Program-made: the position numbers and the translations under genes
The notes under the pieces: model-generated
Databases searched by the model: none
What the model saw: the letters and a program-made list of their open reading frames with translations, nothing else
Told to the model about the DNA's origin: nothing
NCBI GenBank assembly: GCA_018675335.1
Contig: JABGYH010000007.1
Coordinates: forward strand, 175,902 to 239,901
Length of the DNA: 64,000 nt
Source of the DNA: Candidatus Woesearchaeota archaeon
GTDB lineage: Archaea > Nanobdellota > Nanobdellia > Woesearchaeales > UBA11576
Direction of reading: 5' to 3'
Shown: in pieces, positions 20,215 through 63,757 of the stretch
Numbering within the stretch: position 1 is the first letter of the stretch
How the letters are laid out: each line of letters begins with the position of its first letter

Positions 20215-21429
20215 TTAACCTATATTTTGATAATCCTCAAGAACAATTTTACCAATCTCATCCAAATTTTTCACCAGATAAAATTTACCACCGCCAATTT
20301 CTGCGATCTTTTGCCCAAACTTCTCACTATCTTTCTCAACATTAATTCCTACAAGACTTACAGTTATTCCTTGCGCCTTAGCAATAGAGACTGCAGCCAA
20401 AGTATCTTTTTCAGGATTCTCCCCAGTTGTTGGCAGCGCATCAGAAATTAATAAAAGATGTTTAGTTACATCAGTACCTGGAAACAATTCAATAGATTTG
20501 TTAATTGTAACGGGAAAATTAGTTTCAGATGATGCTTTAACTCTAGTTATCTCTCTTAGAATTAAACCAAAATTTTTTGTTGGACGAATGAAATGCTTAA
20601 CTTCTGAACCGAATGTGATTAAACCCACACTGTCTTTTTCTTGAATTGCTTTATACGCCAATGCAACTCCTGCCCGCTTACACATGGAAACTTTCGACCC
20701 CTTCATACTACCCGACGAATCAAGAGCATAAACTAAACAAACTTCACCTTTACTTCGCCTACTAAATGTTTTTAAATCTTGAAATGATAATTTAGAATGA
20801 TTTCGCCTAATAGCATTTTTAACCGACTGGCGAATTGCAATATCTTTGTAACGATCTCCCTTCTTAAACATTTTAGTATCATTCTTGTCCCCATAAATAT
20901 TATGTTTTTTGTGAACTTTTTCTCCCCTTAACCCTTTAGGTATTAGATTGTCTAAACTAGAAGTATACAAAACTAAAGATGCAAGTTCAATACCTTTATC
21001 AGTTATTAAACCTTCACGATCAACAAGCTTTTGAAATTTTAATTTATCAAAAGTTTCTTGAATTCTTTTTTTAATATCTCTTTGAAACTCAGGAATTTTA
21101 GCATTTTTTTCAATATAATCCGGATCATAACCAGTAAATTGTCGAATGATTGAGGCACCAAAAATTTGCTTTGCAGTTTTAAAATTTTTAACAAGTCTTT
21201 CAAACATCAAATCAGGAGTAAAAGAAGATAAACCTTGATTAATTGATTCCTCCAAAAGTTTACCTTGATCAATTTTTTCTTGATCATTTTCTAAAACAGA
21301 ATTCATAAGACCCTTATGCACGTCTTGCTTTTTGAGATTACCAGAAAGTTCTTCAATATTTTCTTTTTCTTTAATCTTAACTTTTTTGTCTTTTTTTGAC
21401 TTTAACTTACCCAACACCCCCGGACTCAT
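20215..21429 (-). CDS. VWA-domain protein (BchD/CoxE-like)
   Basis: The 404-residue protein carries a C-terminal von Willebrand factor A domain (about residues 225-400) with a full MIDAS, DSSGSMKGS, and the downstream Thr and Asp residues. The N-terminal 220 residues are helical and charged. Its start overlaps the AAA ATPase gene by 23 bases, so the two are translationally coupled. Such MoxR/VWA or ChlI/ChlD-like pairs act as metal chelatase or chaperone motors. No tetrapyrrole genes are in view, so a chaperone role is the more careful guess. Confidence 0.87.
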   Translation of the reverse strand: MSPGVLGKLKSKKDKKVKIKEKENIEELSGNLKKQDVHKGLMNSVLENDQEKIDQGKLLEESINQGLSSFTPDLMFERLVKNFKTAKQIFGASIIRQFTGYDPDYIEKNAKIPEFQRDIKKRIQETFDKLKFQKLVDREGLITDKGIELASLVLYTSSLDNLIPKGLRGEKVHKKHNIYGDKNDTKMFKKGDRYKDIAIRQSVKNAIRRNHSKLSFQDLKTFSRRSKGEVCLVYALDSSGSMKGSKVSMCKRAGVALAYKAIQEKDSVGLITFGSEVKHFIRPTKNFGLILREITRVKASSETNFPVTINKSIELFPGTDVTKHLLLISDALPTTGENPEKDTLAAVSIAKAQGITVSLVGINVEKDSEKFGQKIAEIGGGKFYLVKNLDEIGKIVLEDYQNIG

Positions 21430-22444
21430 TGTTGGAGATATTATTACGCTCCATAAATCCGCGAAGTTGTTCTTTTAAAAATTCAACAGGAGATTGAAGA
21501 TATTGAATAGATGGTTTAAGTTTAATACGATGACTTAAAACAGAAATAATCGCATCATACACATCAGAAAAATCAGCTTTAGCTTTTCCCTTAAGAAGTG
21601 CATTAGTTCCTGCTCGCTCAAATAAACCAAGAGTCGCCCTTACACTCGGAACTTTCTCAAGTTTATCAGATTCTCTTAACGTGCGTACAAAATCAACAAG
21701 AGTTGACGTAAGCTTAGGTGGAACTTCAACAAAAGCTTTGCCGTGCTGGTTAATTATCTTAACTTCAAGATCATGAGTTTCAGGATATTCCATATAAGTT
21801 ACATCAAAACGATCAAGAAGAACATCACTTAATTGTTCTGTCGAGGAATCACACGGGTTCATTGTTGCAATAAAAATAAAATTTGCTTCCAAATCAATAT
21901 TGTATGAACCAATAGTTGCAACCCTCTCTTGTAAAACTTGAAGAAGTGCATTTTGTAATTTTTCAGGACAACGATTAAGCTCGTCGAAAAAAAGGATGCC
22001 ATTGTTTGCTTTGAAAATTTTTCCAGGAGTAAATGCTTCAACACTTAACGGTCCAAACTTAAGCGCTTTAATTGGATCAATATCACCAATAAGATCTTCA
22101 GCTGTTAAATCTGGCGAACCTTGAACTCGCACAAAACGTTGAAGACCTGCTATTTTTTTTGTTTCCTGCTTTGTTGATGCAGCTTTACAATCCGGACACA
22201 CAGGAGAATGCGGTGAACAATTAAATCCACAATCATTAACTTCAACTTCTGGAAGCAATTCTGCAACATTTTTTGCTAACGTTGTCTTACCAATACCTGG
22301 CGGACCAATTATTAATATGTGACGATCTGCTGCCAATGCACTTTTTAGTTCTGACTTTACTTTGACTTGTCCTATGACTTCATTGAACGGATCCTTTGTG
22401 GAAAGAAAAACACTCGTTAATTGTTTAGATAAATTTGATACCAT
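21407..22444 (-). CDS. MoxR/ChlI-type AAA+ ATPase
   Basis: The 345-residue ATPase has Walker A (IGPPGIGKT, around residue 48), Walker B (ILFFDELNR), sensor 1 (FIATMNP) and the arginine finger region (LLDRFDV). Between Walker A and B sits a Cys-rich insert (CGFNC, CPDC), a possible zinc knuckle like that in archaeal magnesium chelatase-type subunits. It partners the VWA protein encoded downstream with overlapping ends. Magnesium chelatase subunit I is the closest named family, yet chlorophyll synthesis is not expected here. Confidence 0.9.
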   Translation of the reverse strand: MVSNLSKQLTSVFLSTKDPFNEVIGQVKVKSELKSALAADRHILIIGPPGIGKTTLAKNVAELLPEVEVNDCGFNCSPHSPVCPDCKAASTKQETKKIAGLQRFVRVQGSPDLTAEDLIGDIDPIKALKFGPLSVEAFTPGKIFKANNGILFFDELNRCPEKLQNALLQVLQERVATIGSYNIDLEANFIFIATMNPCDSSTEQLSDVLLDRFDVTYMEYPETHDLEVKIINQHGKAFVEVPPKLTSTLVDFVRTLRESDKLEKVPSVRATLGLFERAGTNALLKGKAKADFSDVYDAIISVLSHRIKLKPSIQYLQSPVEFLKEQLRGFMERNNISNNESGGVG

Positions 22445-27041: not shown

Positions 27042-27392
27042 TTACAAAATTAAAAGAATAATTCCCACTAAAACTAAAATAATTCCTAAAATTATGCCTA
27101 CAACTGCCAAAATAGTTGTTTGTTCTTGCTTTTTAAACCAAACTGGCAAATTTTTTAGAAAAGAACCAGTGTTTTTAAAATCCTTAAAAAAATTCCCAAA
27201 TGATTTCATATAAACCTTAAAATCAAACGGTTTTTTGTTTATATTTGCAGACGAAGTTTTCGTTTGAGCAGTTCCTGCCACATTTGGATTAGAACGACTT
27301 GACATTTGTTGATTATTTTGGAACTGAACATTACTCGGATTTGCCCTGCGAATTTGTTGTTGTGCACTATTTGCCGGAAGTTGTTGAACCAT
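27042..27392 (-). CDS. Tail-anchored Gln/Asn-rich protein
   Basis: The 116-residue protein has a Gln/Asn/Ser-rich N-terminal half (about residues 1-50), a basic aromatic middle (KSFGNFFKDF), and a single C-terminal membrane segment (about 93-115) ending in a hydrophobic run. It would sit in the membrane with its N-terminal part in the cytoplasm. GAGGT precedes the ATG. It lies 76 bases downstream of the VirB11-like ATPase gene on the same strand and may be a partner in the 27-37 kb secretion-like cluster. No family recognised. Confidence 0.6.
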   Translation of the reverse strand: MVQQLPANSAQQQIRRANPSNVQFQNNQQMSSRSNPNVAGTAQTKTSSANINKKPFDFKVYMKSFGNFFKDFKNTGSFLKNLPVWFKKQEQTTILAVVGIILGIILVLVGIILLIL

Positions 27393-27467
27393 ATTATTTT
27401 TAATACCTCTTACAATTTATGAATAAATATGTCATAACATAAAAATAATTAATTACCTTAGCAGTTA

Positions 27468-29783
27468 TTATTTGTTATCATTATACGACTTATTAATTTT
27501 TCTTTTTTTGAGATCCCGATCAAACCAAGTTTGCCACTCAAAAAAAATCTGTTTAGCATCTAACTTTCCAGTTTCGTTCTTAACTTTTTCAGTCATCAAA
27601 TGGAAAACATCATTACACTTTATCACAAATGGTGCTTCAAACATTTCATCATCCCCAGTTTCGATTGCTTTTTCAGTAATGTAACCTTTAATCTTTCCTC
27701 TAAGCTCAACATTATCCCAAACCGCATCCCAATCACCTGCAAAGTCAGGAATATTTGCAGCAATAAGTTTTAAAACATCACTATTCCCGTCTAAAAGATC
27801 GTCAGTTGGCACTAATTGATCTGTTTTTGAATCGTATTTCATTAAATCTACAAATCCCCCTTCTAACAAAGGATCATCATTCCAAGTTTTTCTAACTTCA
27901 GTAATTTGAGTTATTCTTCTCCACTTATGTAAACCATCCGGACTTTTAATTGGAGTTGCAATAATAATTATATCTGTTGCTTTGAAACTTGTTTTAGGAA
28001 CTCCAATATCATTAACAACTCTGTCAAATAAACCATACGGTGAATCTGCGTGAATCGTCCCTGCAACAACATTTGCCGCAGCACCAACACGCATTGCTTC
28101 ATAAAGTGCTTTTGCTTCAGCAGATCTAACTTCACCAACAATTAATGCTGAATCTCCCAGCCTAAGTGTTGCACGAATACCGTCTGCAGCACTCATTTCA
28201 CTACTACCTTTAGCAAGAGCAGATGCAACTTTCATTGGTTGAATATTAAAACCTAAATGCCTCATAGAATCTGTTGGAAGCTCTAATGTATCTTCAACAG
28301 TAATAACCCTATACCGCCTCATAATCTCAATAAGAAGCCCTGTCAAAAATGCAGTTTTACCTGAACTTCTAGTACCACAAATCATCATTGATCTAGTACC
28401 ATCAACAATAAATGATAATAACCCTGCTGCAAGAGGATTAAGTGTTTTATATTTTATGAATAATGGAAGAGTCCAAGGACGATCCCTATGTCTCCTAAAA
28501 GAAAATGCTAAACCTGACGGATCTAATGGCTCAGTAATTGTTGAAACTCTAACTCTTGCTCCAGGAATTTCAAGTTCAGTATCTAAAATAACATTAGCCT
28601 CGTCAAGTGGCCGTCCAGAAATCATTCTTAATTTTGTAGCCCAACTTTCCGCTTCAGTTTTAGTTGGAATAACATTAGTAATACAATCTGAATACTCCCC
28701 ATGAACTAAAAAAATAGGAATTCTTCCTTGAGGAGAATTAACAGAAATATCTTGAATTTCTTCATCTTGCAGTAAAACTTCAACCAACCCAAACCCAACC
28801 GTATACCTTACTAAAATTCGAGCAAGTTTTTTAACAACACTCTCAGGAAAATTCATCCCTCTATACGCAGAAAGTTCTTCGATTAAGTCTTTACCTACGC
28901 TCACAAAAACTTCTCTCATACGAGCAGGATCTGTAAATTCTTGTCTTGTTGGTTTATGTTCTGCAAGAATATTTCTTGCCAAATCGAGAAGTTCATATTC
29001 TTCTTCTGACAACTTAAATTCAGGAGGCATTATGTGATATAAATATTGGACTGATTCAGGCATCCTAAACACAGTAACTTCAGTATCTTCGCCCACTGTG
29101 TAGTTAGCCATTTCTTCGCCACCTTCAGGATAATCCGCCATTAATTTTGTATACATAAAATCAGGCTTGATGAATGGATGAAAAAACTTACGATAAACTT
29201 CCCTATCATGAATTTTATAACCTGCAAGGAATGGTTTTGCCGCAGTAATTAATTTTGTTTTATCAAGAAGCCCAATAACAAAAGTTAACATCTCAAAATA
29301 AACTTCAAAACAAGGAATTAATTTTTCCTCAAGAAGTTTTTCATAATTAATATGTTCTCGTCTCAATACCCGTTTTAATTCAACATACGCCCCAACAGGA
29401 TCTGACTTCATAGTTCTAAAAACAATATTTTGAATTTCAGTGTACCACTTATTTGCAAAAATTTTACCTTCTGGCACTACTAAAAATTTTTGGTACTCGA
29501 ATTTATCTTTAGATCTGCTAACTTGATCAAAAACAAACGCAATTTCTTTAATAAGGTTAACTTGATTTGCATCATATTCATACTCCCTACTTTGAGAAAA
29601 AACAATTTTAGTGGTTTCCGGAGATTCAATAAGATTATCACAAGTTTTACTCATTACAATACCAGAATTTTCTAAAGATGGAACTATAGCAGCACCATCA
29701 TAATTAATACGCATGATGTTATCTTCGCCTTCATGAATTAGTTCATAACCAAACAAAGGTACTTTAGTTCCAAAAACTCCCAT
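27468..29783 (-). CDS. VirB11/GspE-like type II/IV secretion ATPase
   Basis: This cytoplasmic hexameric ATPase powers assembly or transport machines such as archaeal pili, archaella or secretion systems. In the 771-residue protein the N-terminal 290 residues form a specific recognition region. The RecA-like core follows, with Walker A GTRSSGKT at residues 470-477, the Asp box in LIVGEVRSAEAKALYEAM and the His box GTIHAD. The family's normal length is 500-600. It is preceded by AGTGGTGATTT, itself duplicated. No pilin gene is next to it; instead come a HerA-like ATPase, small membrane proteins and coiled-coil proteins. Confidence 0.93.
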   Translation of the reverse strand: MGVFGTKVPLFGYELIHEGEDNIMRINYDGAAIVPSLENSGIVMSKTCDNLIESPETTKIVFSQSREYEYDANQVNLIKEIAFVFDQVSRSKDKFEYQKFLVVPEGKIFANKWYTEIQNIVFRTMKSDPVGAYVELKRVLRREHINYEKLLEEKLIPCFEVYFEMLTFVIGLLDKTKLITAAKPFLAGYKIHDREVYRKFFHPFIKPDFMYTKLMADYPEGGEEMANYTVGEDTEVTVFRMPESVQYLYHIMPPEFKLSEEEYELLDLARNILAEHKPTRQEFTDPARMREVFVSVGKDLIEELSAYRGMNFPESVVKKLARILVRYTVGFGLVEVLLQDEEIQDISVNSPQGRIPIFLVHGEYSDCITNVIPTKTEAESWATKLRMISGRPLDEANVILDTELEIPGARVRVSTITEPLDPSGLAFSFRRHRDRPWTLPLFIKYKTLNPLAAGLLSFIVDGTRSMMICGTRSSGKTAFLTGLLIEIMRRYRVITVEDTLELPTDSMRHLGFNIQPMKVASALAKGSSEMSAADGIRATLRLGDSALIVGEVRSAEAKALYEAMRVGAAANVVAGTIHADSPYGLFDRVVNDIGVPKTSFKATDIIIIATPIKSPDGLHKWRRITQITEVRKTWNDDPLLEGGFVDLMKYDSKTDQLVPTDDLLDGNSDVLKLIAANIPDFAGDWDAVWDNVELRGKIKGYITEKAIETGDDEMFEAPFVIKCNDVFHLMTEKVKNETGKLDAKQIFFEWQTWFDRDLKKRKINKSYNDNK

Positions 29784-29976
29784 TAAATCACCACTTTTAA
29801 AAAATCACCACTTTGAAATAAACAAATATTGATTTATAATTAATATGCACGACTTACATACAACTCATAAAACAGGATAATTTAAATAAATTTAAATATC
29901 CACTTTAAATATAAATTTAAATATAAATAAATATCTATAATAAAATAATAAGCTAATTATATAAAATTAACTCAAA

Positions 29977-30654
29977 ATGGTAGATCAACAAAATATGCAA
30001 ACACCACCAGGAATGCCACCCCCACAAACTGGACCAGGAGGGATGCCAGCAGGAATGCAACCAAGTGGAGCTCCAAAAAAAGGAGGATTTAGTCTATTTG
30101 GCCCTTCAAAAAAACCAGGTGCGATGGCAGGAGGTCCAAAAACTGATTATGCAGGAGAGATCAATAATCTAAGCCGACGACTTATGACCTTGGAAGAACG
30201 ATATACCAACTTACGAAAAAAAACACAAGTTACAGATCAAAACATGTTAAATAATAATAAAAAAATTATGACTGAAATTGGCGCAATACATGAAGAGATG
30301 AAAGAACTAAAAAAAGAAATGACTGATTTAACAGATAAAATGAAAATCATGGTTCGTGAATTAAAAGATTGCGCAAAACGAAATGAAGTTCAGTCACTAG
30401 CAAAATATGTTGATTTATGGAATCCCATAAACTTTGTAACACGAGATGCAGTACTTCGAATAATCAAAGATGAAGTTGAATCACAATTTAAAGATCTTAA
30501 CATAAAAATGCAAGAAGAAGCATTCATAAAAGAACAAATAAAAATCGAAATGCGCGAATTAAAAAATAATAATTTAGACAATAATTCTACTCAATTAAAA
30601 CAAAATGAGAAAAAAATTATTACTGAAGATGGAAAAGAAGTAATAATAGAATAA
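29977..30654 (+). CDS. Coiled-coil protein with Pro/Gly-rich head
   Basis: The 225-residue protein has an N-terminal segment rich in Pro, Gly and Met (residues 1-60) with the basic-aromatic patch PKKGGFSLFGPSKKPG, then a coiled coil (about 65-125) and a second helical coil ending in a charged tail. It is probably cytoplasmic. A second protein of the same design is encoded at 34032. Divergent from the VirB11-like ATPase gene; it may be an adaptor of the same machine. The glutamine amidotransferase gene starts two bases after its stop. Confidence 0.65.
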   Translation: MVDQQNMQTPPGMPPPQTGPGGMPAGMQPSGAPKKGGFSLFGPSKKPGAMAGGPKTDYAGEINNLSRRLMTLEERYTNLRKKTQVTDQNMLNNNKKIMTEIGAIHEEMKELKKEMTDLTDKMKIMVRELKDCAKRNEVQSLAKYVDLWNPINFVTRDAVLRIIKDEVESQFKDLNIKMQEEAFIKEQIKIEMRELKNNNLDNNSTQLKQNEKKIITEDGKEVIIE

Positions 30655-30656
30655 AA

Positions 30657-31208
30657 ATGATTTTAGTTGTATGTTGTGGTAGTAAGAGAGTTAAAGAAAT
30701 ATCTCAAATGGCCAAGAAAACCGGCCATAAAGTCATTTTACGAAAGCCAGAAAATATCCAACTTAGCGAGAAGATTACTGGAATTGTCATTAGTGGTTCG
30801 CCAGTAATGATTGGCAAGCATATTTTGGAATATAAAAAGAAATTTGCATTCTTAAAAAAAATAAAAATTCCAATTTTTGGCATTTGTTTTGGACACCAAG
30901 TTGTAGGGGTCGTGTTTGGATCTAAAGTATCAACAGGTAATGAAATTAAATGTTGGGAAACAATAAACATACTTAAAAAAAGAAAGTTATTTTTGAATTT
31001 GAATAAACAAGAAAAATTAAAACAAGACCACCGTGAACAAATCACACTTCCAAAAAATTTTGAATTATTAGCAAAATCGAAAAGTTCAAATGTTGAAGCT
31101 ATGAAACATAAAACAAAAGAAATTTATGGAGTGCAATTCCACCCAGAAATAAGTGGAGACATTGGAAAAAAAATAATGAAAAATTTTTATGAAATATGCG
31201 AAAAATAG
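30657..31208 (+). CDS. Class I glutamine amidotransferase (GMP synthase-like glutaminase)
   Basis: The 183-residue protein resembles the glutaminase subunit of archaeal GMP synthase. The nucleophile elbow GICFGHQ carries the catalytic Cys (about residue 79) and VQFHPEIS the catalytic His/Glu pair. The bacterial-type synthetase half is not in this window. The ATG overlaps the stop region of the preceding gene by two bases of spacing, so it is co-transcribed with the coiled-coil gene. Alternatives are other stand-alone class I glutaminases. Confidence 0.85.
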   Translation: MILVVCCGSKRVKEISQMAKKTGHKVILRKPENIQLSEKITGIVISGSPVMIGKHILEYKKKFAFLKKIKIPIFGICFGHQVVGVVFGSKVSTGNEIKCWETINILKKRKLFLNLNKQEKLKQDHREQITLPKNFELLAKSKSSNVEAMKHKTKEIYGVQFHPEISGDIGKKIMKNFYEICEK

Positions 31209-31237
31209 AAAAGTTACATAATAATAAAGGTAAAACT

Positions 31238-31519
31238 ATGAAAAAAGCAAAACAAGATATAACTCAATTAAAAAAAGAAATTAAATTGATTAAAATAAGA
31301 AATAAAAAAGTAGAATCTGATAAAGCTTGGGAAACAAGCTGGACTCGAAAATTATTAATCGTTATTTTAACATATCTTGTAATAGTTATCTTTTTTTATT
31401 TTGCAACACTACCGTCTCCTTGGATTAATGCAATTGTTCCTTCAGTCGCATTTGTGTTATCAACACTTACAATCCCCATTTTTAAGAAATTATGGATTGA
31501 AAAAATTTATAAAAAATAA
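31238..31519 (+). CDS. Small two-helix membrane protein with coiled coil
   Basis: The 93-residue protein begins with a short coiled coil (residues 1-35) and continues with two membrane segments (about 41-60 and 66-85). I place the start at ATG 31238 with AAAGGT upstream rather than at 31196, which would overlap the preceding gene. Function unknown. It resembles the membrane protein at 17077 in design. Confidence 0.55.
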   Translation: MKKAKQDITQLKKEIKLIKIRNKKVESDKAWETSWTRKLLIVILTYLVIVIFFYFATLPSPWINAIVPSVAFVLSTLTIPIFKKLWIEKIYKK

Positions 31520-31590
31520 TGTTAATTTAGTTATGAGCTATTTTTCTAAACAAAATACATTTAAACCTCTGTCCCAGCTGCAACACTACT

Positions 31591-31830
31591 ATGACTCAAA
31601 TCAAACTATATCAATTTGAACAATGCCCCTTCTGTGAAAAAATCCGACTTAAATTAGAACAACTCAAAATAGATTATGAAAAAATAAATGTTAGCTTTGA
31701 TTTCAAAGATAAATTAAGACAAGAACTTAAAGAAAAAAGTAACGTCGGAACAGTTCCAGTAATTGAAATTGAAGGGAAGTTTATTGGAGAATCGGATTTA
31801 ATTTTAAAATATTTAGATGAACACTTTTAG
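31591..31830 (+). CDS. Glutaredoxin-like protein
   Basis: The 79-residue protein has the redox pair CPFC at the N-terminus (FEQCPFCEKIRLKLEQL) and the cis-proline region VGTVPVIEIEG. It matches glutaredoxin or NrdH-like proteins that transfer reducing equivalents. It has TTTAAACC about 28 bases before the ATG and no ribosome binding site, so it is probably leaderless. The electron donor is not encoded nearby. Confidence 0.9.
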   Translation: MTQIKLYQFEQCPFCEKIRLKLEQLKIDYEKINVSFDFKDKLRQELKEKSNVGTVPVIEIEGKFIGESDLILKYLDEHF

Positions 31831-31855
31831 ATATTTAACATAATTAATTTAAGGA

Positions 31856-33457
31856 CTAATCATCCTTGATTGCACTAGGACTAGCACCGCCATGCCAAGT
31901 AAATCTAGGCCTAATACGAATTTTATGAATTTTCTCATTTAAATCATCAAAAATAACTGCACTTCCCTTCAGACTTGGAAGTTCATTCATAGCACGAGAA
32001 ATACCGTGCTCCATATAACTTTGAGCAAGAAGCCCTAATGCTTGCATATCTAATCTTGCAGTAATACGATGCGCAATAACCGTATCTAATTGAGTCATAA
32101 CATCAGTATGAATTTTACCTGGTTGTTGAGTTGCAACAATTAAAGAAATACCTGGTTGACGACCTTCTCGCATAATAATTACTAATGGTTCTGTTGCAGC
32201 ATTAGCATCTTCAGGTTTGAGGGGTAAAAACTCGTGAGCCTCATCAATAACTAACCAAACAAGTGGCATTTCTTGCTTTTTTTCCGAATCCACAGATTTT
32301 TGATCGATAAAATATTTTTCCATATACTTAATTTCGTTAAGTTCCTCACCTTTACGAAAAGACATTCGAGAAATAAATAAATGTTTCGACACAATACCCA
32401 CAACTAATGTTTTAACATCCCAGCCACCAGGCATTGTAGCATAACAACTTACATCCAAAACAGTAATTTGTCCACCTTTAGCAAGATCTTGAAGAGGGGT
32501 TCCGTGATCTGTAAAAACTCCCCAAGCAGTAGCTGTTTTAAACATATTTTTAACTGCATTTTTAACTTCAACTGAAGTATCTTTTTCATCATCAAGAAAT
32601 TTAAAGATATCATCAAAATTAAATTTAGCTTTTTGTTCTGTAAGCTCTTCCACAATTTTAGAAATAAAAATACCTTCGGGAGAATACTTATCTTGATGAA
32701 ATGCAGCACACCAATCATCAGCTTCAACTTCAAAAATATTAATTGAAAACGGAAAGTCAGTACGAATTCCCTTTTTTTTATAATCATAATAAAACTTTTC
32801 AGGAGTATAAATCACAATATCTACTGGGTGCGGATCAATTCCATATGGCTCTAGAAGCTTATGCTCTTTTTTATTCGCATGCCCCATAGTCCAATAAATA
32901 CCCATAGTATCTAAAAGAATTATTGATAAATTTTGTTTAACCTCTTCTTCCAATAAAGATAAACCTTCTGCAATAACCCCCATAGTATATGATTTTCCAC
33001 CACCCCGCTTACCACAAATAAGCATTACGTGAGCATTTGAAATATCCAAATAAAGATTATCACCCATAAAAATTTTATCTCCCTTATCAACATATTTTTT
33101 CCCTAAAAGAAGCGCACCTTTAGTCCCATATTTTTTTAAATCAGCCATACTACGACCCGCAACAATAGGCATGTGATCTGGATCAAGAATGGGTTTTGAT
33201 GATTTTGGTTTTTCAGAAGTGTTTGAATAGGATGAATTGTTTGTTTGTTCAGACGCAGTTGTTTGTTCTGATGCTTTACTTTCTTCACCTTCAACCTGTT
33301 CTTTAGAAGAATTATCCCCTTCAGATGAATTAGAATCAACACTTTTAGACAAGGTAGCTTCATCAAAATAATTAGTTTTCTCACTAGAATTAGAATCCAC
33401 TTTAGTCTCATTAGAACTATCTTCTTTAGTCGACTGATCCTCTGAAATAAAAACCAC
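31856..33457 (-). CDS. HerA/VirB4-like ATPase
   Basis: The 533-residue protein has a Ser/Glu/Asn-rich acidic head (residues 1-90) and a HerA/FtsK-fold ATPase domain with Walker A GKRGGGKS (149-156), Walker B LVWLVIDEAHEF and the sensor region VATQQPGKI. Relatives move DNA, secrete substrates or help repair; here it sits in a membrane-protein cluster rather than with the Mre11-Rad50-NurA genes typical of HerA. There is no in-frame ATG near the start: GTG at 33457 overlaps a GAGGTG, so the true start codon is uncertain. Confidence 0.85.
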   Translation of the reverse strand: MVFISEDQSTKEDSSNETKVDSNSSEKTNYFDEATLSKSVDSNSSEGDNSSKEQVEGEESKASEQTTASEQTNNSSYSNTSEKPKSSKPILDPDHMPIVAGRSMADLKKYGTKGALLLGKKYVDKGDKIFMGDNLYLDISNAHVMLICGKRGGGKSYTMGVIAEGLSLLEEEVKQNLSIILLDTMGIYWTMGHANKKEHKLLEPYGIDPHPVDIVIYTPEKFYYDYKKKGIRTDFPFSINIFEVEADDWCAAFHQDKYSPEGIFISKIVEELTEQKAKFNFDDIFKFLDDEKDTSVEVKNAVKNMFKTATAWGVFTDHGTPLQDLAKGGQITVLDVSCYATMPGGWDVKTLVVGIVSKHLFISRMSFRKGEELNEIKYMEKYFIDQKSVDSEKKQEMPLVWLVIDEAHEFLPLKPEDANAATEPLVIIMREGRQPGISLIVATQQPGKIHTDVMTQLDTVIAHRITARLDMQALGLLAQSYMEHGISRAMNELPSLKGSAVIFDDLNEKIHKIRIRPRFTWHGGASPSAIKDD

Positions 33458-33707
33458 CTCTTATAAATTAAAATAATAAATTATTAGTTATATAAATGTT
33501 TCTGAAATAAATAAAATTGAACTTCAAAAACGAACTTATAAAATAAACTTTAAAATAAGAATAATCTATTACTCAAAAAAAGGAACATTTAAAAAAACAA
33601 CTGCACTAACCAATACCCACAGTAAAGTAACTGATAAATATAAACAATTAACAATAAAATAATTTTAAAATAAAAAAAAGAAGTGACATTAATAACAACT
33701 ATAGAGC

Positions 33708-33962
33708 ATGATAACAATGAGTGAAGAAGAAGTACAAAGTATGATTCTGGTTTTAAAAAAACAAGGATTAAGCAATAATCAAATAATAAATTTTTTACAA
33801 ATACAGGGTACAGATTATTCAAAAATATATAAAGGATTTTATGAAATAGATTTAACACAAAAGATTCCAGTACCTGATGCTGAAGACATCAACAAAATAT
33901 ATGAATGCGAAAATGAATTAATTGAAGAGCATGAGTCACAAGAAGCAGAATTTGAAGAATAA
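33708..33962 (+). CDS. Small acidic protein
   Basis: The 84-residue protein has a predicted three-helix N-terminal part (about residues 1-45, with KKQGLSNNQIINFLQ) and an acidic C-terminal tail rich in Glu. It could fold like a small UBA-type or adaptor domain, but I recognise no family. It lies 70 bases before the second Pro/Gly-rich coiled-coil gene on the same strand, facing away from the HerA-like ATPase gene. Confidence 0.6.
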   Translation: MITMSEEEVQSMILVLKKQGLSNNQIINFLQIQGTDYSKIYKGFYEIDLTQKIPVPDAEDINKIYECENELIEEHESQEAEFEE

Positions 33963-34031
33963 CTCAATCAATTTTTAAAAAAATAATTAATACCCATAAT
34001 TTTAATCATAAAAAAAAGAAGGTGATATTTA

Positions 34032-34514
34032 ATGGCTGATTATCCTCAAGGAATGCCCCCTGGGCAAGGATATCCTCAAGGGCAACCAATGCCTCAAGGA
34101 AACATGCCTCCCCCTCCTGCAGGTTATCCTCCTCAAGGAGATCCAGGAAATTCTGGAGCAGACTATGGCGGTGGAGAAAATACTGAAGAAAGAATTGAAG
34201 AGTTAGTAGAAGCAATAATTGATGAGAAATGGAAAGAACTAACTGCCAATATTAGTCGAATTATTGATTGGAAAGATAAAACTGAAGCAAGAATTACTAA
34301 AATTGAAGCAGACTTTCAAAATCTAAAAGATAATTTTGATAAACTACACACAGGAATTTTAGAAAAAGTAGGAGAATACGACCACCACATAATGGATGTT
34401 GGTACTGAAGTTAAAGCACTAGAAAAAGTATTTCAAAAAGTTCTCCCCGGATTTTTAGATAACATCAATGAATTATCCAGAATAACTGATGATTTGAAAA
34501 AGATTAAAAAATAA
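34032..34514 (+). CDS. Coiled-coil protein with Pro/Gly/Gln-rich head
   Basis: The 160-residue protein begins with a Pro/Gly/Gln-rich segment (residues 1-45, repeated PQG motifs) followed by a helical coiled-coil region (about 55-155). It has the same design as the protein at 29977. The ribosome binding site is AGGTGATATTTA before the ATG. The neighbours are HerA- and VirB11-type ATPases and the three paralogous membrane proteins. Confidence 0.65.
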   Translation: MADYPQGMPPGQGYPQGQPMPQGNMPPPPAGYPPQGDPGNSGADYGGGENTEERIEELVEAIIDEKWKELTANISRIIDWKDKTEARITKIEADFQNLKDNFDKLHTGILEKVGEYDHHIMDVGTEVKALEKVFQKVLPGFLDNINELSRITDDLKKIKK

Positions 34515-34648
34515 TTTTAAAACTTTTTTCATTTTTTTATTTCTTTTTTTATAATTTAAAATAAGGTGTATTCTACAATTATCTAAATAATATTTAATTA
34601 GAATTAATCTTGATTTGTAACTTCAGCTATTAATAAATCTCAAACGGT

Positions 34649-35218
34649 TTAACTAGACTTACCAGCCAATAAACGAATAGTAAACGATCCTAGAATTAAA
34701 ATAAACACCATACCTATAACTTTAGGGTGAAAAATTAATGCGCCCACATTACTATTAAAATTGCCCGTATCAACAGTTAAGTCTTCTCCTTGAACACCCG
34801 TAACATTTTCTTCTTCAGAAAATGGCAGAAGTGAACCACCATATACTGCAGAGATTGCACCAATAAAAATAATTAAACCCACTGCCAGAATAAACCAATG
34901 TGCAGTTTCCCAATCTTTACTCATATAAGTCGTTATGGAATCATCATTAACACCCATAAATTTCAAACTAACAATAATCATGAAGAAAAAAATGAACATT
35001 AAAACAAACCAAGGAGCCATAATATTGATAACTTCAACTACTCCTGGAACAATTATTAACATTAAAGCAATACAAAAAGCAATTATTGATTGTAACCCTT
35101 TACTATCCCCAAAAATTTTAGTTTTTTGTAAAACTCCAAATAATAGAACAAACACTAGAAGAATTGGAAGAATAACTCCAAAGTAATTGATTAACCCAAT
35201 ATCTAAAAATGATGCCAT
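34649..35218 (-). CDS. Polytopic membrane protein, paralogue A
   Basis: The 189-residue protein has about five hydrophobic segments. Its start resembles the proteins at 35295 and 36129: a first helix with ILPILLVFVLLFGVLQKT then a Gly-Asp/Ser loop and a second helix. The third-to-fifth helices run to a short cytoplasmic end. It is last of the three adjacent paralogous genes on the minus strand, with GAGGT before the ATG. It might be the membrane channel or platform of the secretion-like cluster, though its sequence gives no catalytic clue. Confidence 0.65.
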   Translation of the reverse strand: MASFLDIGLINYFGVILPILLVFVLLFGVLQKTKIFGDSKGLQSIIAFCIALMLIIVPGVVEVINIMAPWFVLMFIFFFMIIVSLKFMGVNDDSITTYMSKDWETAHWFILAVGLIIFIGAISAVYGGSLLPFSEEENVTGVQGEDLTVDTGNFNSNVGALIFHPKVIGMVFILILGSFTIRLLAGKSS

Positions 35219-35294
35219 TAATGAACCTCTTTAAAACATATTTGAAAATGAAAACTAAATGAAAATAAAAAATAAGTGAAAATAAAAAAAATAT

Positions 35295-35879
35295 TTAATT
35301 GCTACCATCAAATAACTCTTTGAATTGATCACCAGTTTTTTTGATAACTCCTTCGTCATTAGGATTGCCTGGTTCTTTAACAATAAACCATACAACTAAA
35401 GCAAAAACACCAATTACAATTAGTAATGCTTGCGTATCAGGATCATCTAACCACCAAAGCCAATCAGGCCAATATTGTAACCAATTAGCAGCTCTTGCGA
35501 AAATGAAAAACACTAAAGCAAATGCGCCAAAAGCGATCCAACCAGATAAAGATGAACCCCATTGAGCCTTTCCACCAAACAGACCAACAACCAAAAAGAC
35601 CATAACAATCGCGACTAAGACAATACTTACACTAGGTAATGCCTTATTAATTATTGAAACCACATCTCCATTCGCAGGATAATATCCTAGAACATGCGGA
35701 ATTACTGTCGCCAACGCCAACACAAGAGCAATAACTACATTGTACTGTTTCTTATCACCTAATGGTTGGGTCTTTTGCATGATTGCAAAAACAACTGTAA
35801 AAATAAGTAAGAAAGGGAGTAGTACATCACTTAAGCCCATGTATTCAAGCCTATAAATGACGTCTTGGAAACCTACCAT
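35295..35879 (-). CDS. Polytopic membrane protein, paralogue B
   Basis: The 194-residue protein has five to six hydrophobic segments and shares the N-terminal pattern LLPFLLIFTVVFAIMQKT with paralogues A and C. The GGAGGT ribosome binding site eight bases before the ATG is the strongest in this region. A Trp-rich stretch (WLQYWPDWLWWLDD) lies in the loop before the last helix, possibly at the outer membrane face. Confidence 0.65.
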   Translation of the reverse strand: MVGFQDVIYRLEYMGLSDVLLPFLLIFTVVFAIMQKTQPLGDKKQYNVVIALVLALATVIPHVLGYYPANGDVVSIINKALPSVSIVLVAIVMVFLVVGLFGGKAQWGSSLSGWIAFGAFALVFFIFARAANWLQYWPDWLWWLDDPDTQALLIVIGVFALVVWFIVKEPGNPNDEGVIKKTGDQFKELFDGSN

Positions 35880-36128
35880 ATTATTACCTCCTTTTAAAAA
35901 TCGAAATTAAATTTTTTATTTGTTAATTAAAATATTAAAATTTATTTTAAAAAAATTGAATTAAAATATATTTTATGTTAAATTAATGATTATTAGTATT
36001 TATATTTATCCTTTTTATAAGATTTGATTTTATAAGTTTTGATTTAAAAATTTGTTTTAAAGATTTAATTTAAAAATTTGGATTTAAATAAATTTCATTA
36101 ATCCTTGACTATAGATCATAAAATAAAT

Positions 36129-36686
36129 TTAATCTTTTTTATCTGCTGCATCTTTTGGAGACTTTACAATAAAATACATGAAAACAATAACTAAAATCAT
36201 CAAAGCAATCGACCCCACAATATTTGAGTCCCAATGATTAATTAAATATGCCCACGAAGGTTCTAACCAACCAAGTGCATTCATAAAAATTAAAATAATA
36301 CCTATAAGCATTGCAATCATAAATGATGTTCTCCACCATCCTTCTTTAAGATATGCAACCTCTCCCTCTTTCATAAATGATCCTATTAAAATAAGAAAAC
36401 AAACTGAAACTAGAAGCAATAAAACCATGTGAGCTAATGCCTGATTAATAATCGCTACAAGACGAGTTGATGCTACAACTAAAAATGCAATCACAAATGC
36501 AGCCATAGAATTAAGATTTTTACGAGTATATTCTACATCTTTAATTTTTTCAGAACCAAATACTTGCGACTTTTCAAGTATTGCAAATACTATCGTAAAA
36601 ACAAGAATGAAAGGGAGAATAACATCATAAACTCCTAGATCCCCAAAAAACTCTATAATTCCGCGGAATACACTTTGCTGTGGCAT
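36129..36686 (-). CDS. Polytopic membrane protein, paralogue C
   Basis: The 185-residue protein begins MPQQSVF and shares the first-helix pattern ILPFILVFTIVFAILEKS with paralogues A and B, and has about five membrane segments. I use ATG 36686, matching the paralogues' length, although the frame stays open to 36770. TATATAAA lies about 25-30 bases upstream of this ATG, as for a leaderless message. A 250-base AT-rich gap separates it from paralogue B. Confidence 0.65.
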   Translation of the reverse strand: MPQQSVFRGIIEFFGDLGVYDVILPFILVFTIVFAILEKSQVFGSEKIKDVEYTRKNLNSMAAFVIAFLVVASTRLVAIINQALAHMVLLLLVSVCFLILIGSFMKEGEVAYLKEGWWRTSFMIAMLIGIILIFMNALGWLEPSWAYLINHWDSNIVGSIALMILVIVFMYFIVKSPKDAADKKD

Positions 36687-36922: not shown

Positions 36923-39763
36923 ATGAAATCCACAAAAAAAGCAGATTTTGAAACTGCCAGAATAAATGAAATCTCAAATGAAGTTGGAGAATTTTATAGG
37001 CAAATCATCTCAGGAAATGACTTAACTACTGATATGATCAGCCAAACAAGAGAACTATTAGATAATCTAGATTTCGAACTTTCAAAAGAAGAAGAACGAT
37101 TTGACCATTTAATAGGTGAATTTTCAGAATTTTATATTTGCGCACTATTACAATTACCTATAACCGACTTTAAAAAAACAACTCAAGGAAATGCAACAAA
37201 ATATGAAAGTTATCAACAAAGCAAAGGACTACGAACATTATATTCCAGACTTAAACTAATACGAAAAGTAAAAAAGAAATTTCTATCATCATTTAGATTT
37301 GATAAAATTCAAGGAGATACTAAAGGGATAAGAATTATTCGAGATCACCCCGATACTCCTGAAGTAGATTTTTTTCATGCAGCAAAACAAGAAGACACTT
37401 CATATTTAGAAAGAATCGTTAAAGCCAATCCAAAAACTTGGCAATACACCCCATTTGATATAAATAATTATGAAAGAGGAGATTTTAAAGAATTATTTGC
37501 CAAATTACTTGATATACACCAAGATCAAAACGAAACAGAATTTGATATTGACTTAGTAAGAGCATATGTTTCTCAAGATATAACTTATATGAATGCATGC
37601 ATCACAGAATTTAGAAAAAAAGTTAAACGTACAACAAAATATTTTCAGCGTAAAACAGAACATGAAAAAAAAGGAAGAGATGCAAAAAGAGGATTCAAAG
37701 AAGATCAACAGTTAGAATGCTTAGAACATTTAGTTGGAATGAATGATCAATTACCTGGGCGAAACGTGAAAAATCCTGACGCATACTTCGCACAAATTTT
37801 AAAAATATATGAAGCTAGCATACCTCACCCAAATAAAACTACCAGCTTACAAAAAATTTTAGAAAGAGGCACAGTAACTGGAGCTAAACGGCTAATTGAA
37901 GACAGAGTTCATTTATGGCAATATTCACCAGTAGATTTTGATGAATTATTCAAACAAGACTTCGATTTAGCGTTTAGAAAACTACTCAATATTTATGTTC
38001 ACAATTTTGAAGAGGCCAATTCCGATCAAGTAAAAACAGATATTGAAACAATAATTGATACTTGTGAATTAATACAGTTTAATGTTGTAAAACTAAATCC
38101 AGTAACATACGTCAGTTCTCAATTACAACCTGATGAACCTTCCCGAACACAGTTTACAATTGCTAGTCGAGAATATAGAAAATCAATTGAAGACGTATTG
38201 GATGTGAAAATAGATATTGTCAAAGCAGACAATAAAAAATCTGCCGCAGCTAAATTCGCAGGACTTTTAAAAATTTACAAAGCAAAAAAAGTTAGTGCAG
38301 CAGAGACTGCAGCGAAAGGCTTGATGCGAAACTTATTTTATTTTGAAAGAGAAATCTCCAAAAATCAATTGAGCACACCCTCTGCCACCAATCCAGAAGA
38401 TACAGATCCAATTGCAGCCCAGGAAATAGAACGTGAAAAATATGTTTTTTGTAGAGAAGGTGATTTAATCCTCATCCTTCGTGCGCAACAAAACAATCCC
38501 CAATATTTAGAAGATGCAACACTATTTTTCCAAAAAATACTTGTAGGAAGAAAGCAAACACAAACTGATTCATTAATATTCTCATTAAGCGAACTTCCCG
38601 GACAAAAAAAACAAGCAAATAGTTTTGCGATAGTTCCAAAAGATGTCCCTGCAGGATACTTGCCAGTAAAAGTTAATGATATGTCTCAATTATCAACCTT
38701 ACTCTTACTAAGAAAGGCCAAAAAACAACCTGCACCCTACAAAGATTACACTGCCCACCCGAAAAAAAATGGGTATAAAGGACGACACGCATATTTTGAA
38801 CGAACAGTTACAGAAGATCAATTAGATGGAACAACTACTGAAACAGTAGATTTAATTGAACTACAATATAGAACTAGTTTAGAACATTTTATTGATGAAG
38901 TTGGAAGTGCCAGTTATCAAGATTACTCTAGCGATGTTGAACGAAATCACAATTTTAGTGACGCCGAACTCGAAAAAATTATTGAATTAAGTTTAAGCGC
39001 AGATTTAAGTCCTCATCAAATAAAAAACGAAAAACGAAAACGAATGAAAAATTTTAGACGATACGACGCAATAATTGATACAATAATTTTAAACAAATAT
39101 GCTGAAAAAATTCAACGAGTATACACAGATTTACTTTTAGAAGAAGATCTTGAAATAGTTGAACAAAAAATGGGGCTTTTAGTCACATTAAGGAAAAATT
39201 TAATCAAAGACTTTCAAGAACAAATAGAAACAGATGATCCCGCAAATAAAATTCGACAAAGAATTACAGATTTAACTCGAAAAATGCAAGAATTGCCCCA
39301 AGAATTTATTCTTCGCGCAGGACTCAAAGCTTACGAAAGATATGATAAAGCAAGCGTTATAATCGGAGTTTTACGACAAGAACCATTAGTCCAACATGGA
39401 CAAGAAAAATTAGTTGAACATAGTTATGATTTTTATAAATATTTAACTTTATGTGCTTTCACTCGAGCATATTTAGGTCAACGAAACCTTAATCAAGCAC
39501 AAACCCGAGTTGGAACTGCACTTTTACAAGCAGCAGAAACTTGTGCCAATTGTAAAGACGATTTAAAAGAAGTCGAACGAAGAACAGTACTTGAAAAGTC
39601 CATGGGAACATATTTTGAAAACCACACAGGAAAAATTAGTAGAGACTTAATACGCCCGCCAACAATAGAAAAAGGACGACTTGTTGATGAACTTGATCGC
39701 CTTAGAAGATATAGAGTTGATAACAACCAAGAAATCATAGATTACGTTGTGGATAACAGCTAA
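36923..39763 (+). CDS. Large protein with RelA/SpoT-like synthetase signature
   Basis: The 946-residue protein is mostly helical and contains a RelA/SpoT (RSH) synthetase signature. YKDYTAHPKKNGYKGRH (606-622) matches the family's KDYI-PK-NGY-S-H motif. ELQYRT (646-651) matches EIQIRT, with Glu646 at the catalytic position, and EHFIDEVGSASY matches the following helix. The N-terminal part of the fold (Arg and Asp motifs) is not evident, so activity is uncertain. Two internal repeats with a WQY(T/S)P motif lie near residues 172 and 332. I do not recognise the rest. Archaeal RSH-like proteins are rare. It faces away from the membrane-protein cluster. Confidence 0.6.
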   Translation: MKSTKKADFETARINEISNEVGEFYRQIISGNDLTTDMISQTRELLDNLDFELSKEEERFDHLIGEFSEFYICALLQLPITDFKKTTQGNATKYESYQQSKGLRTLYSRLKLIRKVKKKFLSSFRFDKIQGDTKGIRIIRDHPDTPEVDFFHAAKQEDTSYLERIVKANPKTWQYTPFDINNYERGDFKELFAKLLDIHQDQNETEFDIDLVRAYVSQDITYMNACITEFRKKVKRTTKYFQRKTEHEKKGRDAKRGFKEDQQLECLEHLVGMNDQLPGRNVKNPDAYFAQILKIYEASIPHPNKTTSLQKILERGTVTGAKRLIEDRVHLWQYSPVDFDELFKQDFDLAFRKLLNIYVHNFEEANSDQVKTDIETIIDTCELIQFNVVKLNPVTYVSSQLQPDEPSRTQFTIASREYRKSIEDVLDVKIDIVKADNKKSAAAKFAGLLKIYKAKKVSAAETAAKGLMRNLFYFEREISKNQLSTPSATNPEDTDPIAAQEIEREKYVFCREGDLILILRAQQNNPQYLEDATLFFQKILVGRKQTQTDSLIFSLSELPGQKKQANSFAIVPKDVPAGYLPVKVNDMSQLSTLLLLRKAKKQPAPYKDYTAHPKKNGYKGRHAYFERTVTEDQLDGTTTETVDLIELQYRTSLEHFIDEVGSASYQDYSSDVERNHNFSDAELEKIIELSLSADLSPHQIKNEKRKRMKNFRRYDAIIDTIILNKYAEKIQRVYTDLLLEEDLEIVEQKMGLLVTLRKNLIKDFQEQIETDDPANKIRQRITDLTRKMQELPQEFILRAGLKAYERYDKASVIIGVLRQEPLVQHGQEKLVEHSYDFYKYLTLCAFTRAYLGQRNLNQAQTRVGTALLQAAETCANCKDDLKEVERRTVLEKSMGTYFENHTGKISRDLIRPPTIEKGRLVDELDRLRRYRVDNNQEIIDYVVDNS

Positions 39764-57584: not shown

Positions 57585-60500
57585 TTATCTTATTTCCAAA
57601 GTTCTGTATTTAACTCTGTGAATGTCGTCGTTATGAACTACAATTCTAACATCGTAAACTCCAGGAGTTGCCCACTGAGGAATATCAAAAACTAAGTTTG
57701 AATTATAATTTTCGCCAGATTCTAATTCATGAAGTTTATCAGTTGCCATAACATCTAATTCTTCAACATAAATTCTAACTTTAATATCTTCAATATCATA
57801 GTCAAGATTATTTTCAAAAGATATAGTTGAACTAACTAAATCTCCAGGCATCAAAACCGCACCACCAAATAAATTATTGAAATTAATTTTGTTAACAAAA
57901 ACATCATCTAAATCAACAAACGGTGTTAAATAATCTATATCCCAAACTTGTTCGAAACCTTCGGAATCATCATTGCCATTCATACAATTTGGATCTTGCA
58001 GATCAATTAAACCATCACCATCATTATCGATATTATCACTACATTGAGGTCCAACAATAACATGAAATTCATCATTGTCTTGAAGGTTTTCACAACCAGG
58101 ATCTAACAGATCGATTAAACCATCAGAATCATTATCAATCCCATCTGAACAAGCAGAATTTCCAGGATTCCAATTATCTTCAGAATCATCAGTTGCATTA
58201 TCACAATCAGAATCGTCTAAATCAACAAATCCGTCACCATCATTATCAACATTATCACTACATTGAGTATTACCAGGATTCCAATTATTTTCAGAATCAT
58301 CAGTTGCATTATCACAATCAGAATCGTCTAAATCAACATACCCATCAAAATCGTTATCCAATCCATCACTGCAAGCAAATGTTGGAATTATAATATCAGT
58401 TTCATCATCATCTTCAGCACTGCTACAACCAGGATCTTCTAAATCAGTTAAATTGTCAAAATCATTATCAATACCATCAGAACATTGAGGTAAAACAATT
58501 GGTTCTTCTAAAACTAATACAACTGCTTGAGTTGATGCTTGCGCACCATCATCGTCAACAACAATTAATTGAATAGTATAATTACCCAGCTCATTTAATG
58601 TTTTATTGAATGCGACAGGAATTCCTGAAATTAATAAATCTTGATCAAAAAATTCTCCATCATCATGAATAATCCAACTATAAGAAGTTATTTCTCCATC
58701 AGAATCATAACTGCCAGATCCATCAATAGCAACAACTAAAGGCACATAACCTTGAGATGGAGTTACATTAAGAACTGCCACAGGAGCTAAATTTTGTTGA
58801 ACTTGATTTGTTTCATCATCATCATCAGCACTACTACACCCAGGATCCGCAGGGAAGTCAACTAAATTATCAAAATCATTATCTATCCCGTCAGAACATT
58901 GAGGTAAAACAACAATAACTTCAGTATTAATAGTAACTTCAATTGAATCTGTATCCAAATCAAGATCGCTTAGTACTAAAGTAATATTTGCCGAACCAGA
59001 CTCTAAAGGAGTTATGGTTAAAACATCAGTAACATCAACAACAACATCAACAATATCAGACACTTCAATAACATTCCAAGTTAAGTTATCACCTGAATCT
59101 TCAACATCAGATTCATACGGAGTTAATGAGATTGTAGTTTCTTGATCAAAAACAACATTTTCAAATTCTCCAACTAATCCCTGATCAATTACTGGAAGAT
59201 TATTTAGAATAGATAATTCAACAACTTCTTCAGCACCACTACCATCTTCAAAATTAAATGCAAAAGTGAATACTTGACTACTACCTAAAAAATCATGAGT
59301 AGGTGGAATTTGCAATGCATAATAATAGTAAGTAGATTGAGCTTGAGCATAATCATCAACTAAAAAATCAACCATTCCCCCAGGAGGACTTACTAAAGAA
59401 GCATCAGTTACTAAATCCATAGTAGTTAAATTATCTGAGTCTAAAACTCTAAATTTAATATAAATAAATTCATTACGGAAAAATTCATTTGAGACAACAG
59501 AATAATCTGAATCAGAATAAACTGTTAAATCATCAATAACATATTTTTCTTCTAAAATATTATATGTGAAATTAGGAACCACATCTAAGTCAGCAATAAA
59601 GCCATCTTTTTGAGCAATTGCGTGAACTGTTTCTACACCTGGTGCTCCGACAGTATAAACTGCAGAACATGCTCCAGTTAAACTATCAGTAACACAAGTT
59701 CCTAAAATTTCGTCATTTGAATTTAAAATTGAAACACTAACTTCTCCTTCAGAAATATTATTTGCAGTAACATCCACAATACAACTTTGAGGTTTGTTCT
59801 CAATAACATTTTCAAAACAAGTTAAACCTTCAACATCTAATGCACCTACAACAACTATTTCTTTTGAAACATTAACTACTTCTTCTCCATCTGAAACAGA
59901 TAAAGTTACAGTATAAGTTTTTGGAGTAGAATAAACATATTCAGGATTTTGTTCATTTGAATCAACAACGCCATCACCATTAAAATCCCAACTAAAACTT
60001 AGCAGATCATTTTCAGGATCTGATACTTGAGATACGAATAAAACAGTTTCATAAACACCAGGAGTTACTGGTGCAAATATAAAATTAACAACAGGTGGTT
60101 GATTAACATTTTCAACATTTAAAACCCACGCATGTGAAACTTGATCTTTCCCATCAGATACAGTTACTACAACATCATAAGTTCCAGCAGAATCTAAATC
60201 TGAATTAAATTGATAATTAGCACTATTTCCTACAACATCACCTTCAAGAGTCCAAATATATTCAAGATTATTAACATCTTCTGAATCAGCATCAGTTGCA
60301 ACAACTGAAAAACTTTGCGATTCTCCTTCTTGAATTAAAGGATCATTTAACGGAGCGAACTCAGAAATAACTGGTACTCGATTTAAATCAGTAATTGTAA
60401 TTTGAACAGGAATTGAAGCGGATGCTCCTAATGAATCTTCAACACTAAATTGAACAACATAAACTCCTTCACTATCATAATCAGTTTGCCAAGTAAACAA

Positions 60501-63443: not shown

Positions 63444-63757
63444 TTTATTTAAACCTCGTAAAATTGTTTTATTAAACATTAATAAGGATCTTATTCGTTT
63501 TAAACGATTCAAATAAGTTTAAAGCCCGTTCTACTATATAGATAGAGCTTTTTTCACTTATAAGTCTTTAAAAAACCCCCAATAAATATAATTAAGCGTA
63601 AAGTACCTAACAACTCGTTATTATATAAAATTTACGTTTTGTTGTTATTAAACGGGACTAAATGTGGGTCTTTATTATATAGTGAACAAATATCCATTAA
63701 TTTACTTGCATCTTCCGAGCAAGATATATAAATAATTCTCTTTTAAACAAAAAAAAT
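63444..63757. other. Divergent promoter region at the right edge
   Basis: The 314-base gap has no ORF. It contains a CGTTTTAAACG palindrome near 63498-63508, CTATATAG near 63530-63540, an ACTTATAAGT palindrome near 63558, and at 63725-63732 the TATA box of the flavoprotein gene. Confidence 0.4.
63725..63732 (+). promoter_or_regulatory. TATA box for the geranylgeranyl-reductase-like gene
   Basis: TATATAAA is centred about 29 bases before the ATG at 63758, and no ribosome binding site is seen, so the message is probably leaderless. Confidence 0.55.

Follow-up and report, generated by a model that had tools for sequence, protein, structure and literature searches.

A near-universal gene block of Woesearchaeota and its likely role as motor and base in a type IV filament machine

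What kind of machine is formed when two motor ATPases are encoded beside three related membrane proteins, with neither a pilin nor a platform gene amongst them? The question is raised by the block at positions 27042-36686 of a 64,000 nt stretch of contig JABGYH010000007.1, from a Candidatus Woesearchaeota archaeon; the whole of this stretch is referred to here as the window. Every open reading frame (ORF) of the block was confirmed at its coordinates, and the assembly to which it belongs (G000) is 1.7 Mb in size and 97% complete. The closest named relatives of the genome are Candidatus Woesearchaeota, as judged by a contig scan in which the best 80 of 555 hits were kept, all of them from Woesearchaeota/Nanoarchaeia. 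A viral origin of the block was considered and rejected, there being no relatives among viral contigs. An initial reading of the sequence alone (the sequence-only reading) had proposed a conserved membrane machine for type IV secretion or DNA transfer, driven by a VirB11-like and a VirB4-like motor. The conserved machine is borne out by the gene neighbourhoods described below; what the block very likely encodes, however, is the motor and base of a pilus-like machine of the type IV filament kind, shared by nearly all Woesearchaeota/Nanoarchaeia.

The motor is a 771 aa ATPase encoded on the complementary strand (27468-29783). It matches Pfam family PF00437 (T2SSE; E=4e-15) and PDB entry 2oap (E=5e-31), and its Walker A (GTRSSGKT), Asp box, Walker B (LIVGEVR) and His box motifs are all intact. 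Searches of NCBIfam gave matches to FlaI (E=3e-37), TadA (2e-36) and VirB11 (7e-17), all below the curated cut-offs, whilst comparison with a haloarchaeal PilB-type ATPase using hhalign returned a probability of 100%. Hence the earlier description of a VirB11/GspE-type ATPase was right in recognising a secretion-type motor, but the VirB11 match is far weaker than that to FlaI, and the profile comparisons place the protein with the FlaI/PilB/GspE2 group and not with VirB11. Of 378 genomes drawn from across the class, 363 have the gene (185 of the 191 good ones), mostly in single copy and mostly at 45-70% identity over its full length. Both termini of the protein bear conserved extensions, and 44 aligned copies had a mean column identity of 63%. 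A draw of genomes at the level of the phylum gave only members of the same class (58/60). A near-universal machine, with a motor conserved to the degree seen in housekeeping proteins, must have a central function.

The neighbours of this ATPase were determined with iterated profiles in 37 loci from 30 families, selected solely by the position of the ATPase gene. The arrangement TM1> TM2> TM3> <CC2 <CC1 ATPase> FlaJ>, in which TM1-3 are the three membrane proteins, CC1 and CC2 are two coiled-coil proteins and FlaJ is a platform-like protein, is exact in 25 of the 37 loci, with variants in the rest; this conservation of order and orientation is far beyond chance. A FlaJ-like protein of 690-766 aa accompanies the ATPase in 36 loci, CC1 in 35 and CC2 in 33, whilst 30 loci have two or more TM genes. 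The recurrence of the three membrane and two coiled-coil proteins at fixed places agrees with their having been regarded as integral parts of the machine.

TM1 (36129-36686), TM2 (35295-35879) and TM3 (34649-35218) are polytopic membrane proteins encoded on the complementary strand, and gene order marks each as a core subunit. That they are related, as had been suggested, is confirmed by profile-profile comparison (E=2e-39 and 8e-19), TM3 being the most diverged. The start of TM1 is most likely at 36686, and not that of a longer GTG-initiated ORF; its family occurs in 85 of 93 genomes, including 57 of the 59 of high quality. None of the three matched a Pfam or NCBIfam family at cut-off, nor any secretion model. 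The structural models of TM1 and TM2 were only moderate, the AlphaFold2 model of TM2 having a predicted local distance difference test score of 81 and a predicted template modelling score (pTM) of 0.51, and that of TM1 a pTM of 0.55; a Foldseek search of the PDB with these moderate-quality models found no fold match, a search of viral structures with the TM2 model was likewise negative, and the TM2 profile found chance or coiled-coil matches only among PDB sequences. The possibility that these proteins are degenerate forms of FlaJ was rejected, since hhalign comparison with the FlaJ-like platform family detected nothing.

Both coiled-coil proteins have a Pro/Gly-rich head, are expected to be cytosolic and are taken as core subunits. 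CC1 (29977-30654, forward strand) adjoins the ATPase in 35 of the 37 loci and has a conserved C-terminal motif, WxPxNFVT. CC2 (34032-34514, forward strand) is preceded by an 84 aa acidic ORF (33708-33962, same strand) that had been listed as a small protein in its own right. The ORF exists, but in relatives, including a genome of the same genus, it is fused to CC2. Here the two share a reading frame that is interrupted by three stops, and the ORF represents the small helical N-terminal domain of CC2, cut off by these in-frame stops. CC1 and CC2 were rejected as homologues of one another, their similarity being merely a weak coiled-coil match, and as homologues of small genes that adjoin a haloarchaeal PilB/PilC pair, on direct comparison. 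Searches of PDB sequences with the profiles of both gave chance or coiled-coil matches only.

The sequence-only reading correctly noted that the block contains no platform or pilin gene; both are encoded elsewhere in the same genome. In 36 of the 37 loci the ATPase adjoins the FlaJ-like protein, members of which match Pfam T2SSF in eight of 37 cases, and the family aligns lengthwise with the platform of a haloarchaeal secretion system, encoded beside a PilB-type ATPase (hhalign 99.8%, E=4e-29). Each of the 10 genomes from the family to which the window belongs has an orthologue. In G000 it is on another contig (G000:C1:208853-211027), whilst in one relative, G004, it is still at its old place; the platform gene has relocated within the genome of the window, which is why the block lacks it.

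In nine genomes outside the window's order, pilin-like genes lie behind the ATPase and FlaJ genes on the same strand, mostly in rows, each encoding a single transmembrane helix behind a class III signal (K[KR]?[GA]). Searches with profiles of two of these pilins led to an orthologous operon that shares a contig with the window (G000:C7:457-475 kb), with matches at E=4e-35 and 4e-23 and three more near 1e-10 to 1e-4. It comprises approximately 16 pilin-like genes, many of which are similar, gene by gene, to the FlaJ-linked pilins. A simple custom motif script scored 13 of the 19 ORFs in this operon as pilin-like, against 14 of 369 in control loci. Two prepilin peptidase genes (PF01478, above the Pfam cut-off) are also present in the genome. 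Taken with the ATPase and the platform, these complete the set of genes by which a type IV filament machine is defined, all of which are present in the genome.

Several of the pilins carry enzymes. A 1479 aa protein of the G000 operon consists of a pilin head followed by an N-acetylmuramidase (PF11860, E=6e-34) and an N-acetylmuramoyl-L-alanine amidase (PF01510, E=5e-17); the orthologue in the same genus carries the muramidase, whilst in more distant genomes the gene encodes a plain short pilin. Within contiguous ATPase-FlaJ-pilin operons, G134 has a 560 aa pilin-headed protein with lytic transglycosylase (SLT) and amidase domains (L108:15755-17437), and G288 a 773 aa pilin-headed M23 peptidase (L106:14215-16536). 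Class-wide, the amidase domain is found in 24 of 281 genomes. Eleven of 17 inspected amidase ORFs lie in pilin operons; ten of these have the pilin motif and one has a single transmembrane helix at its start but no motif, as scored by script, and by eye for the G000 and G134 proteins. Of 12 aligned amidase domains, 11 retain the His and Asp positions that bind zinc. A second amidase protein, of 989 aa with a Sec-type signal and an SGNH-like start, is encoded directly downstream of the G000 pilin operon (G000:C7:472-490 kb, L285:4690-7659). To our knowledge, archaea of this group make no murein, and hence bacteria are the likely target of the fused hydrolases. For those lineages that have pilin-hydrolase fusions, wall cutting is the favoured reading of its use, and somewhat more probable than not.

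A mechanism can be envisaged in which the hexameric FlaI/PilB-type ATPase (27468-29783) would drive the FlaJ/PilC-type platform (G000:C1:208853-211027), whilst the prepilin peptidase would cleave the pilins, which the platform would lift from the membrane into a filament. TM1, TM2 and TM3 would probably surround the platform as a hetero-oligomeric collar or anchor, with CC1 and CC2 probably serving as cytosolic rods that hold the ATPase to the base, in the manner of FlaC/D/E in the archaellum. In this organism and several relatives, the filament would present the pilin-borne wall-cutting enzymes (muramidase, amidase, lytic transglycosylase and M23 peptidase) to a touching bacterium, the wall of which would be opened locally, for feeding, attachment or killing.

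A number of observations weigh against this scheme. The motor, platform and pilins are at three separate places in G000, and we infer their assembly into one machine from orthology with genomes in which the parts are contiguous. A second, more canonical type IV pilus (T4P) locus, with a PilB3-type ATPase (PF23989), T2SSF proteins and pilins, is found at G000:C9:99.7-108 kb (L128), and could share the peptidase or the pilins. TM1-3 have no known relative or fold match, and it is gene order from which their place in the machine is read. Furthermore, SLT domains are commoner than the amidase (108 of 281 genomes) but mostly not pilin-headed, and amidase-pilin fusions are found in a minority of genomes; therefore wall cutting cannot be the universal function of the machine.

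This minority distribution also speaks for an ordinary adhesive or twitching T4P used for attachment to a host or surface, in which the hydrolase fusions are accidental and play no role in attack. All the parts of a T4P are present, most of the machine-bearing genomes lack an amidase-pilin (any amidase being found in just the 24 genomes noted above), and T4P have been proposed as attachment organelles of DPANN archaea (PMC6142677, PMC11291902). Accident would nevertheless have to account for the appearance of muramidase, amidase, SLT and M23 domains on pilin heads of this operon in several families, as well as for the retention of the zinc ligands. The absence of murein from the group adds to this difficulty, and an ordinary pilus is in our view a real possibility that falls short of being probable. 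The large number of minor pilin-like genes in the G000 operon, more than a simple pilus needs, and the adjoining 989 aa amidase protein could instead indicate a pump resembling type II secretion, in which a short endopilus pushes separately made exoproteins, hydrolases included, through the envelope. However, in 11 of the 17 cases inspected the hydrolase domains are covalently joined to pilin heads or starts and do not form free cargo, and an outer membrane to hold a secretin is not known in such archaea, although a secretin was not searched for; such a pump is therefore unlikely. That the filament machine proposed here constitutes a distinct subclass of type IV filaments, ancestral to the whole phylum, to which three paralogous membrane proteins unseen in other such systems belong as an obligatory module, and which in many lineages acts as a contact weapon or feeding needle whose hydrolase-bearing minor pilins let the filament itself cut bacterial walls, is a proposition to which we would give an even chance.

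The second ATPase of the block (31856-33457, complementary strand) is a 533 aa HerA/DUF87-like protein (PF01935, E=9e-12). It had been described as HerA/VirB4-type, but VirB4 models do not match it, the best having E=0.66; there are weak matches to the DNA import models CedD (E=1e-6) and CedB (E=0.004). HerA of this family is present in 56 of 59 relatives searched, including all 38 of the good genomes among them, and a tree divides the sequences into two clades, each with 100/100 support. Members of the common clade most frequently have a PpiC/SurA rotamase as their immediate neighbour. With rotamase and other genes, and not NurA, as neighbours, a HerA-NurA repair pair (an end-resection helicase) was rejected as an explanation. 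The other clade, confined to a few families of the order, is found at the machine locus, between or beside CC1 and CC2, in 11 of 12 sampled genomes. As HerA is nearby in only two of the 37 sampled ATPase loci, being missing from the locus in nearly all lineages, it was rejected as a core motor; the restriction of the locus-bound form to one clade and few families points to a late, lineage-specific companion of the machine. A role as a retraction motor or as a DNA motor would be a guess. The sequence-only reading had stated that its proposal would be refuted if the two ATPases each proved to belong with unrelated standard partners elsewhere: this holds for the 771 aa ATPase, which goes with FlaJ and pilins, and in part for HerA, the universal copy of which stands beside other genes whilst its sister copy is bound to this locus. 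In two families the common HerA copy is 3-5 kb from the machine locus (L096 in G376 and L097 in G290), which hints at an old linkage of HerA with the machine before the duplication.

In many genomes, homologues of both ATPases are interrupted by insertions of several hundred residues at conserved sites that keep the ORF open and are probably inteins. Those in the motor ATPase occur in G008 (L037), G073, G132, G137, G169 and G234, whilst those in HerA, near its Walker A site, are found in G013, G016, G027, G029, G033, G040 and G047.

These distributions bear directly on the type IV secretion-like transfer of DNA or protein by a VirB11/VirB4 motor pair that had first been proposed. Two P-loop motors and several small membrane proteins do lie together in the window, and both the attachment of one HerA clade to the locus and its weak Ced similarities could be read in its favour. 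Yet the first motor is far nearer to FlaI and TadA than to VirB11, the second is missing from the locus in nearly all lineages and is not VirB4-like, TM1-3 match no secretion model, and the genome encodes a platform, pilins and prepilin peptidases. No relaxase was present among the Pfam and NCBIfam matches of the block, though no genome-wide search for one was made. This explanation is largely refuted, and retains the least probability of those considered. Scarcely less improbable is a DNA uptake (competence) pilus, in which HerA would be the DNA motor in some lineages: bacterial T4P machines do serve DNA uptake, and an ATPase of the HerA/FtsK DNA pump type is embedded in the locus in the window's family, but it is missing from the locus elsewhere, and the block has no ComEC or DNA receptor gene, a genome-wide search for which was not made.

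The filament machine proposed here has partial precedents. In cluster 2 DPANN archaea, Woesearchaeota among them, Hamm et al. (2024; PMC11291902) described a pair of conserved loci that encode CpaF, TadC and coiled-coil proteins. These share with the present locus a CpaF/FlaI-type ATPase, a TadC/FlaJ platform, two coiled-coil proteins, which are a feature of their 'locus 2', and an occurrence in Woesearchaeota, Pacearchaeota and Nanoarchaeota; the present locus is very probably one of the two, as judged by kinds of gene and by lineages. The main text of that study is silent on the three paralogous membrane proteins and the large pilin operon, and likewise on the lineage-specific HerA and the pilin-hydrolase fusions. 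Makarova et al. (2016; PMC4858521) reported clade 4F pilus ATPases in nanoarchaea, for which cognate pilins were not found there, and a coiled-coil protein linked to the clade 4F ATPase in haloarchaea, whilst fast-evolving pilin islands in DPANN archaea were described by Makarova et al. (2019; PMC6393860). The haloarchaeal PilB3/PilC3 motors of clade 4F are alike in that ATPase and platform align with ours over most of their length, at the hhalign probabilities given above; the plasmid pair examined has no counterpart of TM1-3 or CC1/CC2 beside it.

The archaellum, too, combines a FlaI-type ATPase and a platform with coiled-coil cytosolic accessory proteins. It differs in that the ATPase of the block scores 128.5 bits to the archaellum FlaI model, for which the curated cut-off is 550, and we know of no archaellum counterpart of TM1-3. 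No FlaH or FlaF/G stood out among the conserved neighbours of the block, although no profile or genome-wide search was directed at them.

In action, the closest analogue is Kil, the Tad-like contact-dependent killing apparatus of Myxococcus xanthus, which makes local holes in prey peptidoglycan (PMC8460266). Kil is likewise a type IV filament machine with its parts split between gene clusters, but it is of the bacterial Tad type, and its hydrolase has been hypothesised to be an enzyme secreted in its own right, in contrast to the pilin-fused hydrolases described here; the likeness would be one of action, not of membership. Archaeal peptidoglycan hydrolases that kill bacteria, encoded by archaea that lack murein themselves and prominent in Nanoarchaeota, were reported by Strock et al. 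(2025; PMC12352652), and murein hydrolases of Nanoarchaeota appear also in PMC9723730, with no link to pili in either. As the former does not mention pili or pilins, a candidate delivery machine is the addition made here. As far as the open-access literature searched shows, three points are new: the recognition of TM1-3 as core components, the link of the machine to a large cognate operon of pilins, and the fusion of pilins to hydrolases.

Woesearchaeota and their kin are widespread and mostly uncultivated, and live off other cells, which may be archaeal or bacterial. Pilins fused to several kinds of peptidoglycan hydrolase would make bacteria the likely partner or prey, and would give the murein hydrolases known from archaea a physical means of delivery. 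TM1-3 offer marker genes, as well as a target for structural work.

A small tail-anchored protein downstream of the ATPase (27042-27392, complementary strand) is a doubtful member, recurring only within the window's family (seven loci), and a gene encoding two transmembrane helices is shared only with the genome of the same genus. The glutaminase-like and glutaredoxin genes do not recur in the loci of relatives and are therefore bystanders, as had been suspected. Immediately beyond the block, at 36923-39763, a 946 aa protein with a weak RelA/SpoT match is found beside the locus only in the same genus (40% identity). Further away in the window, at 20215-22444, lies a gene pair encoding a vWA protein and a MoxR-type ATPase, a combination that has been linked to T4P in other archaea (PMC4858521); the pair is not among the conserved neighbours of the locus and was rejected as a part of the machine. 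Towards the other end, a 538 aa secreted protein (61896-63512) has DDAPVDLPK repeats; its C-terminal portion, which ends in FVGAQYLF, resembles a bacterial outer-membrane barrel, an odd feature in an archaeon. Next to it, a 1397 aa surface protein (57585-61778) contains many CxDGIDNDxDGxxDxxDPGC repeats of a calcium-binding type.

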